NCBI GenBank assembly: GCA_016178305.1
Contig: JACOTM010000018.1
Span: 1 to 38,952, forward strand
Length of the DNA stretch: 38,952 nt
Reading direction: 5' to 3'
From: Flavobacteriia bacterium
GTDB taxonomy: Bacteria > Bacteroidota > Bacteroidia > Flavobacteriales_D > Crocinitomicaceae
This document shows positions 26,649 through 31,693 of the stretch, piece by piece. Each line of letters starts with the position of its first letter. Position 1 is the first letter of the stretch. A model generated the notes under the pieces. That model ran no database searches, was not told the DNA's origin, and worked only from the letters and a program-made list of their open reading frames with translations. Both the position numbers and the translations under genes were made by a program.

Positions 26649-28793
26649 ATGAATATAGGAATCAGAAAATCTATCGTAGTTGATGGTAAAGAGATTTCAG
26701 TTGAGACTGGAAAGTTAGCAAAGCAGGCTGATGGCTCTGTTGTTGTTAGAATGGGAGACACAATGTTATTGGCAACTGTTGTTTCTACACCTGAAGCGAA
26801 AGAGGGAGTAGATTTTTTACCGTTAACGGTAGATTACAGAGAGAAATTCTCTGCAGCAGGAAGAATCCCTGGGGGGTTTTTAAGAAGAGAAGCAAGACCA
26901 TCTGATGGAGAAGTATTAATTATGCGTTTGGTTGATAGAGCTTTACGTCCACTTTTTCCAGATGATTATCATGCAGAAGTACAAGTGATGATTCAATTGT
27001 TGTCATTTGACGGTGTGAATAATCCTGATGTCCTTGCTGGTTTTGCGGCATCTGCAGCTATTGCTGTTTCAAATATTCCGTTCAACGGACCAATGTCTGA
27101 AGTTCGAATAGGGCGAGTTGATGGTAAATTCATAATCAATCCAACGTATGCTGAAATGAAAATTTCAGATATGGATGTTATGATTGCTGGATCAGCGAAA
27201 GATATCGTGATGTTAGAAGGAGAAATGTTAGAAATATCTGAATCAGAAATGGTTGAAGCTATTAAATTAGCACATGAATCAATCAAGCAACAATGTCAAT
27301 TTCAATTAGATCTGGCTGCTGAAATTCCAACGGCAAATCCAAAAAGAGAATATTCTCATGAGGCGCATGATGAAGAATTAAGAGCACGAGTATATGCTTT
27401 TTCTGAAGAGAAATGTAGAGAAGTAGCACGTAAAGGTTTAGCTTCAAAAGCAACTAGAACTGAATTGTTTGATGCTATCAAAACAGAATTAAAAGCTACT
27501 TTTACAGAAGAAGAATTAACTGAAAAAGGAGGGTTGGTTTCTGTTTATTTTAGTGAAATCAAGAAAAAAGCAGTTCGTTATGTCATGTTACATGAAAGAA
27601 AACGCTTGGATGGACGTAAATTTGAAGAAATCAGACCGATTTGGGCTGAAGTTGATTATTTACCAATGGTTCATGGTTCAGCTGTATTTACAAGAGGGGA
27701 AACTCAATCATTAACTACTTTAACTTTAGGTGGTAAAATGGATGAGCAATTATTGGATGGTGCAACATTTAGAGGTACTGAAACTTTTATGTTACATTAT
27801 AACTTTCCTCCATTTTCTACAGGAGAAGCAAAACCGTTAAGAGGTACTTCAAGACGAGAAGTAGGGCATGGAAATTTAGCCTTAAGAGCCTTGAAAAATG
27901 TTTTACCAGATAATAATCCATATACAATTCGTTTAGTTTCTGATATTTTAGAATCAAATGGTTCATCTTCAATGGCAACCGTGTGTGCAGGTACTTTAGC
28001 ATTAATGGATGGTGGTGTTCAAATAAAAGCACCCGTTTCAGGAATTGCAATGGGATTAATTACAGATGAAACAGGAGCATTTTGTGTGCTTTCAGATATT
28101 TTAGGTGATGAAGATCATTTAGGAGATATGGATTTCAAAGTGACAGGTACTTCAAAAGGTATTACTGCTTGTCAAATGGATATTAAAGTAGATGGTTTGT
28201 CGTATGAAGTGTTAACACAAGCTTTAGATCAAGCAAGAGAAGGTCGATTACATATCTTAGGAAAAATTATTGAAACAATTGCAGTGCCTAATAAAGAATT
28301 GAAACCTCAAACGCCAAGAATTGAAATGTTAATCGTACCAAATGATATGATTGGGGCAATTATCGGACCTGGAGGTAAAATCATTCAAGCAATGCAAAAA
28401 GAAACGAATACCGTTATTACAATTGAAGAAATTGAAACAGGTGAAGGTAAAGTGCAAGTTGTTTCTAATAACGGAGATGATATGGCTGAAGCATTGAAAC
28501 GTATAAAATTAATTGCTTTCCCTCCAACTGTTGAAGAAGGAATGGAATACGATGGAAAAGTGAAATCAATTCAAGCTTACGGATGTTTCGTTGAAATTTT
28601 GCCAGGAACAGATGGTTTGATTCATATTTCAGAGTTTGCTTGGGAAAAAACTGAAAAATTAGACGGTTTGGTAAAAGAAGGAGATGTTATTCGTTTTAAA
28701 GTTGTTGGTAAAGATCCAAAAACAAAAAAATGGAAATTATCTCGTAAAGTTTTACTTCCAAGACCAGAGAAAAAAGAAGAAGCACAAGCATAA
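26649..28793 (+). CDS. pnp: polynucleotide phosphorylase
   Basis: 714 residues: two RNase PH domains (about 10-225 and 310-545) with [33 protein letters not shown] at about 56-88 broken by strand turns, [19 protein letters not shown] at about 438-456 and [15 protein letters not shown] (acidic metal-binding residues) at about 484-498. A KH domain has [16 protein letters not shown] at about 573-588, and an S1 domain ([19 protein letters not shown]) at about 636-654. It degrades RNA 3' to 5' by phosphorolysis, in the degradosome. Co-transcribed with rpsO through a partial terminator. Confidence 0.97.
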
Positions 28794-31035: not shown

Positions 31036-31063
31036 TTGGTTTAATGAATTAATATTAAATTTG
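31036..31063 (+). promoter_or_regulatory. promoter of the structured RNA
   Basis: A -33 TTG (31036-31038) and a -7 TAAATTTG (31056-31063) with a 17-nt spacer: one of the two best full promoters in the window. It points to an RNA starting at about 31067-31069. Confidence 0.65.
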
Positions 31064-31067
31064 TGAT

Positions 31068-31288
31068 AGAGGTACAGCTACGAAGTTAGCGCAGTGACCT
31101 TATCCCTTTGGGGAGCCCATGCAGATTATCTTGAAGCTAACATTTATGACAATAAAAGGGAGTCTTTTTTAGTCAATGGCGGGCCACAACGAATTTCGTT
31201 AAGTTAATGCTTACAGTGGATTACAAAGATTAAAGGTAACCTCAATCGTGTTTTCTGAGCTTCAGAAAACCCACTGCATGGGTTTTAT
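31068..31288 (+). ncRNA. structured non-coding RNA of unknown family
   Basis: The 312-base gap between the LapA-like gene and the next gene holds no ORF of note but has higher GC and many stems. Promoter at 31036-31063. Helices: GAGGT (31069-31073) with ACCTC (31239-31243); GTTAGC (31085-31090) with GCTAAC (31136-31141); TCCC with GGGA (31103-31114); TGAC/GTCA plus AAAAG/CTTTT (31147-31175); CCAC (31184-31187) with GTGG (31216-31219). The end has a 9-bp hairpin (31250-31258 with 31262-31270) and AACCCA/TGGGTT (31268-31284) before TTTT, an end like a terminator. CCCATGCAG (31116-31124) also pairs with CTGCATGGG (31274-31282). Length (about 220 nt) fits 6S-like RNA or a leader of the downstream lipoprotein; I could not assign it. 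Confidence 0.6.
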
Positions 31289-31329
31289 ACTAATATTAAA
31301 TTTTCAGCGTTATAATGAAAAATTAGATT

Positions 31330-31458
31330 ATGAAATACGCTCTTAAAATTTCAGTTGCAATTATTGTTGTATTAATATTTACTTCTTGTGCAAGTACTAA
31401 ATCTTCTCGAAAATGTAATGGTAGAAAAGGGATTGATACACCAATGGGTAAAATGTAA
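31330..31458 (+). CDS. 42-residue lipoprotein
   Basis: 42 residues: MKYALKISVAIIVVLIFTSC is the signal peptide with lipobox FTSC (Cys20), and the mature part ASTKSSRKCNGRKGIDTPMG then KM is short and basic, with one more Cys. The KC-x-G-K/RKG-x-x-TPMG-x-M end looks like a shared motif of tiny Bacteroidota lipoproteins, from memory. It follows the structured RNA by about 40 nt; the RNA could be its leader. A 75-residue protein gene follows 7 nt later, so they form an operon. Confidence 0.7.
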   Translation: MKYALKISVAIIVVLIFTSCASTKSSRKCNGRKGIDTPMGKM

Positions 31459-31465
31459 AAAAAAC

Positions 31466-31693
31466 ATGAATTATGAATTCCCAATTTATCGAAAATTGAG
31501 CAATGGAAAGGTTTATTATAAAATAAATTCATTGAGAGAATTTGAAGAAAAGCAAAAGATAGGAGTGAGGGTTTATTTATATGTTATAAAAGCAGAACAA
31601 TATCCCGAAATGTTGAAAATTCAAGATATGCTATTATGCTTTGAAGGTATATATTTAGAAAGTACAGATGTTGATTGGGATCATTTTATCTAA
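31466..31693 (+). CDS. 75-residue protein of unknown function
   Basis: 75 residues from ATG 31466 (MNYEFPIYRKLSNGKVYYKI). A longer reading from 31388 would run over the lipoprotein in another frame and is rejected. No signal peptide; beta-alpha look, with IYRKLSNGKVYYKINSLREFEEKQKIGVRVYLY broken by a helix, and YPEMLKIQDMLLCFEGIYLESTDVDW at the end. No family recognised. It follows the lipoprotein by 7 nt and overlaps the convergent OmpA-like gene by 8 nt. Confidence 0.62.
   Translation: MNYEFPIYRKLSNGKVYYKINSLREFEEKQKIGVRVYLYVIKAEQYPEMLKIQDMLLCFEGIYLESTDVDWDHFI

Follow-up and report, generated by a model that had tools for sequence, protein, structure and literature searches.

A probable 6S RNA gene with an additional folded 5′ domain in a Flavobacteriia bacterium

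It was concluded that this genome very probably encodes its 6S RNA, a small RNA believed to restrain RNA polymerase, at positions 31068–31289 of the window, the whole stretch of 38,952 nucleotides that was analysed. The product, of about 220 nt, appears from its sequence to be independently transcribed and to act in trans, and we infer that it binds polymerase and directs the synthesis of product RNA (pRNA). The analysis established homology, structure, covariation, a single copy by the Rfam model RF01693 and neighbours that vary between relatives. The features of the locus were as follows.

31036–31063 (+), candidate promoter, recognised from sequence: a −33-like TTG at 31036–31038, a 17-nt spacer and a −7-like TAAATTTG at 31056–31063
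31068–31289 (+), predicted whole transcript of about 222 nt, its 5′ end placed from the promoter and its 3′ end from the U run
31069–31101 (+), 5′ hairpin 1: 31069–31075 with 31094–31095 and 31097–31101, and 31077–31080 with 31087–31090
31103–31114 (+), 5′ hairpin 2: 31103–31106 with 31111–31114, directly adjoining the closing stem
31115–31124 (+), 5′ arm of the closing stem, (G)CCCATGCAG: covariation, and a pair probability of 0.89–1.0 for 31116–31124
31125–31156 (+), 5′ strand of a large internal loop (central bubble, by 6S analogy) and, by the same analogy, presumed pRNA template
31157–31242 (+), long imperfect inner stem with conserved GGCGGGCCAC at 31178–31187 and GTGGATTAC at 31216–31224 and small apical hairpins: RF01693 structure, covariation
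31250–31270 (+), 3′-strand hairpin GTTTTCTGA/TCAGAAAAC, an alternative to the pairing of 31132–31138: 85.4% paired, weak covariation
31274–31283 (+), 3′ arm of the closing stem, CTGCATGGG(T): covariation
31283–31289 (+), U-rich 3′ end and likely termination point; the 3′ ends of aligned homologues are also U-rich

An earlier sequence-only reading had described a full promoter, and its TTG, 17-nt spacing and TAAATTTG were all found at 31036–31063, a combination which we take to be the Bacteroidota promoter type. As that reading had also stated, no open reading frame of 40 aa or more overlaps 31068–31290, and the G+C content is raised, being 0.37–0.41 in the two 100-nt intervals lying wholly inside the segment and lower in the flanks (0.19–0.27 upstream of 31050 and 0.22–0.31 downstream of 31300, in intervals of the same length). 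The segment 31068–31288 folded better than its shuffled versions (z −2.31), with 2 of 200 shuffles equally good. In 19 of 36 aligned homologues, but not in the remaining 17, a TAnnTTTG box was present whose end lay 51–55 nt ahead of the closing stem. This box, the U-rich 3′ ends and the neighbours that are not kept would all fit a 6S-class RNA with its own promoter and terminator. The view of the segment as an independently transcribed structured RNA was supported, as far as sequence can support it, by the RF01693 match and by covariation.

The comparison with Rfam gave a single significant match, that of RF01693 to 31114–31289 with 58.3 bits and an E-value of 5.4e-9, aligned over model positions 1–179 of 179, and this was the sole match of the model in its own genome at E 0.001. 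RF01693 is the family Bacteroidales-1, carrying the Rfam label '6S-Bacteroidales RNA suggested'. The RNA resembles it in the full-length match, the shared motifs GGCGGGCC and GGATTAC, the same inner stem and the paired ends; motifs and inner stem were recovered over the full model together with covariation. It departs from the family in score, since the gathering score of 60 lies 1.7 bits above that of the window copy, and in the Rfam structure line, which leaves both ends unpaired although they do pair. Because of these 1.7 bits a default Rfam scan of the window does not report the RNA. The gathering score is a curator's threshold and not a biological feature, and the window copy is therefore called a homologue rather than an Rfam-listed member. 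Among the 59 genomes searched, DNA homologues were present in 18, the own genome included, and the cut-off of RF01693 was reached in two, namely in a genome of the same genus (G011, 69.5 bits), whose orthologue shares 85% DNA identity, and in one of the same order (G057, 61.7 bits). The side guess of a divergent 6S RNA, made earlier from the long-range closing of the ends, appears to have been right in view of the RF01693 match, the 69.5 bits within the genus and the stem covariation.

The second Bacteroidota model, RF01685 (6S-Flavo), gave a weak alignment to this span (23.6 bits, E 0.48, cut-off 85); the closing stem and the 5′ domain lie outside its 108 positions. In genome G285, both models matched one place (locus L181, 1368–1541, minus strand) with E-values of 3.3e-6 and 0.0014, both below their cut-offs. 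Because the two coincide there and over the same span of the window, the results suggest that RF01693 and RF01685 are parts of one RNA; neither is assigned to a clan in the Rfam search output. RF00013 (6S), by which 6 of 14 control genomes were matched, gave no match in the own genome at E up to 1.

Other candidates were rejected. ARAGORN found no tRNA or tmRNA in the window, and a match of snR47 on the minus strand (E 6.2) was taken as chance. At the gathering threshold the window contained only an S15-Flavobacteria ribosomal protein leader (RF03161, 26210–26267, plus strand, 65.6 bits), elsewhere in the stretch; a 714-aa frame at 26649 looked by eye like polynucleotide phosphorylase.

The pairing of the ends was assessed in related loci. 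Of 49 loci considered, L039 was left out by a position filter, lying near a contig end, and L017 and L181 for want of the search motif; ten of the remaining 46 (L023, L029, L031, L033, L038, L168, L170, L174, L178 and L180) were set aside by eye as too distant or as carrying an enlarged 3′ insert, giving the alignment A1 of 36 homologues. The segments CCCATGCAG (31116–31124) and CTGCATGGG (31274–31282) are perfect complements, as had been noticed from the sequence. In A1 the closing stem formed standard pairs in 98.6% of cells, with both-side changes in 7 of 10 pairs (22 cells), and its covariation score was reached by none of 500 shuffles. When the partners were slid, pairing fell to 22–44%. 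The inner stem (helices 2–4) showed both-side changes in 17 of 20 pairs and the two stems together in 25 of 32, so the covariation looked for in relatives was present; the core structure used for this combined count was itself the RNAalifold consensus of A1, an advantage over its slid versions.

Further, the ends of each homologue were paired with their own partner or with one swapped from another. The own duplex was the stronger among the A1 homologues (−16.3 vs −13.4 kcal/mol) and among 96 Bacteroidales homologues (mean −20.5 vs −12.7 kcal/mol), and in both sets 0 of 300 swaps were as good. Covariation and the preference for the own partner together identify CCCATGCAG/CTGCATGGG as the closing stem of a 6S-type RNA. 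Paired ends, a large internal loop and a terminal stem, the architecture of the 6S class, were all found, and the RNA resembles the Escherichia coli and Bacillus subtilis type of 6S (RF00013, SsrS) in its closing stem, its internal loop with a 3′-side hairpin and its terminal stem.

The covariance model R1 was built from A1 and used at a threshold of E 0.001. With the training genomes counted in, it matched 133 of the 200 genomes examined from the window's family, representing 22 of 24 genera, and 114 of the 299 examined from the order; no match was obtained in 67 of the 200 family genomes. The RNA was single-copy in 131 of the 133 matched. RF01693 at E 0.01 detected 78 of the 200 family genomes, one of them above the cut-off, and RF01685 exceeded its cut-off in none of the 299 order genomes searched. 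Genus g22 of the window's family accounted for 19 of the 20 no-match genomes listed in the order search (165 further ones beyond these) and for 9 of the 20 listed in the family search (47 further ones). The 19 listed in the order search are 96–100% complete. Because G211 of this genus does have a match, divergence of the 6S RNA in g22 was considered as possible as its loss.

An exact core pattern was found in at least 118 stretches of named genomes, 115 of which were assigned to Bacteroidales groups; the remaining matches among those listed were one unplaced Bacteroidota, one Flavobacteriia and one chance match. The last lies in Ancylobacter radicis (L074, 3016–3067), where the DNA is rich in G+C and has the look of coding sequence. 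At one locus of genome G085 (L229) the RNA occurred twice, at 387–563 and 2503–2677, about 2.1 kb apart; in the second copy the 5′ closing arm is damaged and the upstream sequence differs from that of the first, so that it looks like a decayed partial duplicate. Genome G174, which is 75% complete, gave two good R1 matches on separate contigs (C84:3116–3295 and C77:4198–4386), representing either a second copy or a mixed assembly.

Both motifs, Bacteroidales-1 and 6S-Flavo, are listed by Weinberg et al. 2010 (PMC2864571). A 6S RNA was detected in Flavobacterium psychrophilum (PMC9723704), and dRNA-seq of Bacteroides thetaiotaomicron revealed a 6S RNA and two pRNA classes (PMC7366714). The name 'Bacteroidales-1' does not occur in the main text of the latter paper; the 6S RNA of B. 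thetaiotaomicron was equated with the RF01693 RNA because RF01693 matches Bacteroides ihuae where RF00013 does not.

It might be supposed that the segment encodes a structured trans-acting homologue of RF01693 with a function other than that of 6S, for example a base-pairing sRNA or a binder of another protein. For RF01693 a 6S role is only 'suggested' by Rfam, and the extra 5′ domain described below is unusual, both of which agree with such a proposal. We nevertheless regard it as improbable in the face of the single copy in 131 of 133 matched family genomes, the closed-ends architecture with its large internal loop, the homologues in many Bacteroidales, the 6S and pRNA reported from Bacteroides (PMC7366714) and the failure of RF00013 to detect any other 6S RNA in this genome.

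It had been proposed that a terminator competes for pairing at the 3′ end, in the manner of a riboswitch or attenuator. The hairpin on which it was based, AACCCA (31268–31273) with TGGGTT (31279–31284), does exist and overlaps the CTGCATGGG arm. It shares 31279–31282 with the closing stem, is followed by U residues and can be formed in 89.8% of cells. The two pairings therefore exclude each other on paper, but the comparison of relatives supported the closing stem only: the covariation score of the hairpin was reached by 239 of 500 shuffles, and its predicted probability was 0.0 against 0.89–1.0 for the closing stem. Hence, one of the two alternative helices showed signs of selection and the other did not.

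The downstream gene was also considered, since the RNA had been suggested as a leader controlling a 42-residue lipoprotein. Neighbouring genes were sought by tblastn (E 0.001) at 34 related loci, up to 1.5 kb on each side, and the resulting counts are lower bounds, several loci stopping at contig ends. The lipoprotein gene was found at 5 of the 34 loci, the LapA-like gene at 8, EF-P at 8 and OmpA at 3, and the RNA was retained at loci in which these genes were not found. All five loci with the lipoprotein belong to the window's own genus, of which 10 other genomes also gave the locus. Because the gene occurs at only 5 of 34 loci, the RNA was not considered its leader, and no conserved regulated gene was seen downstream. 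A cis-acting riboswitch or attenuator, in which CCCATGCAG would sequester CTGCATGGG, block the AACCCA/TGGGTT terminator and so control the lipoprotein gene at 31330, is on these grounds very improbable.

A 101-aa frame at 31388–31693 (+) overlaps the lipoprotein frame. It had no Pfam match at E 0.001, was 48–51% conserved in three same-genus loci and probably represents a genuine small gene that begins later.

For the 6S RNA the following sequence of events was proposed. The paired ends (31115–31124 with 31274–31283) close an internal loop that would imitate an open promoter, and the long inner stem presents the conserved GGCGGGCC and GGATTAC motifs. By analogy, the RNA would bind the housekeeping RNA polymerase holoenzyme at low nutrients and would be released when the polymerase copies the 5′ strand of the loop into a short product RNA. 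On release, 31258–31264 would leave the 5′ strand and the hairpin 31250–31270 would form. The two 5′ hairpins, which would stack against the closing stem, might either be cut off as a precursor leader or be kept as an extra arm beside the polymerase.

6S RNAs are known to refold in this kind of place, and a possible, weakly supported competition was found here: 31132–31138 can pair with 31258–31264 in place of the hairpin 31250–31270. The predicted probabilities were about 0.6 for the hairpin and about 0.4 for the long-range pairing, and the two were formable in 85.4% and 83.7% of cells, respectively. Loop duplexes gave −10.3 with the own partner vs −9.9 when swapped, 28 of 500 swaps being as good, and a shift of the long-range pairing by one column raised its covariation score (0.305 vs 0.251). 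In E. coli 6S RNA, pRNA synthesis goes along with a larger 3′ stem loop of the central bulge (PMC10406553), and the refolding proposed here likely corresponds to it.

Additionally, no Rfam match was found for the segment between the promoter and the closing stem. In the window the −7 box ends 52 nt short of the closing stem, in contrast to a median of 17 nt (range 9–45) in the Bacteroidales RNAs. The latter were measured at 91 of 111 places with enough sequence (13 had no anchor motif and 7 no promoter box), the start of the closing stem being approximated as 17 nt before the anchor motif. This set, like the other Bacteroidales controls drawn from the 118 core-pattern loci with L074 and L135 excluded, was selected by the exact core pattern and contains many Prevotella. 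The promoter sequence predicts a transcription start in the window some 47 nt ahead of the closing stem.

The two hairpins predicted in this segment were examined in A2, which comprises 27 of the 36 rows of A1. Nine rows (L028, L025, L034, L032, L041, L042, L176, L020 and L026) had been removed by eye before the first count, which favours the count. Among the 26 distinct sequences, both-side changes occurred in all 15 pairs (76 cells, 84.5% paired): in 11 of 11 pairs of hairpin 1, whose helices were 82.4% and 87.3% paired, and in 4 of 4 pairs of hairpin 2, which was 85.4% paired in the register of the window's fold as against 66.7% when shifted by one base. None of 500 shuffles reached the pair count, cell count, paired fraction or covariation score, while the further pair types were no better than shuffles (122 of 500 reached the value). 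RNAalifold on the 5′ alignment alone yielded a poor consensus (−3.3), in our opinion because the alignment is gappy there, and the analysis relied on counting pairs and on folding the sequences individually.

A fairer assessment than the A2 pair count was obtained by folding 54 loci individually, the 36 of A1 and 18 others, some of which are near-identical (e.g. in genus g2) and thus not independent. The two-hairpin fold was the minimum-energy fold at 47 of these 54 order loci; the corresponding numbers were 3 of 98 for Bacteroidales and 4 of 54 for upstream controls. It was seen at 45 of 49 loci of the window's family, two of three of family f3 and neither of the two of f13; the loci failing were L028, L034, L032, L020, L026, L218 and L233. 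Fold energy was weaker evidence, with a mean z of −1.19 for the order loci, −0.22 for Bacteroidales and −0.24 for the upstream controls, and the window's own 47-nt segment was moderately better than its shuffles (z −1.09). By these comparisons the 5′ domain appears to be lineage-specific and covarying in the window's branch.

E. coli 6S RNA is also produced as 5′-extended precursors (PMC10406553). The window's RNA differs from the RF00013 type of 6S, for which this genome gave no match, in that its 5′ extension is conserved and folds as a domain. No description of a two-hairpin 5′ domain of 6S was found in a search of open-access papers. It is possible, though we put it forward tentatively and as somewhat less than an even chance, that the window's branch of the Bacteroidota has retained the domain as a functional element of 6S which, stacked on the closing stem, reaches past the usual 6S–polymerase complex and supplies an extra contact, sensor or maturation signal. 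To our knowledge, no 6S RNA with such an addition is known.

The finding implies that 6S RNA, a global regulator, has been overlooked by default annotation in the window's family, where RF01693 passed its cut-off in 1 of 200 genomes, RF01685 in none of the 299 of the order, and R1 found the RNA in 133 of 200. RF01693 and RF01685 could be merged into one broader model that includes the closing stem, and with it the gene could be named in many genomes. The 5′ domain, being conserved, offers a testable addition to 6S biology, either as a precursor leader or as a working arm.
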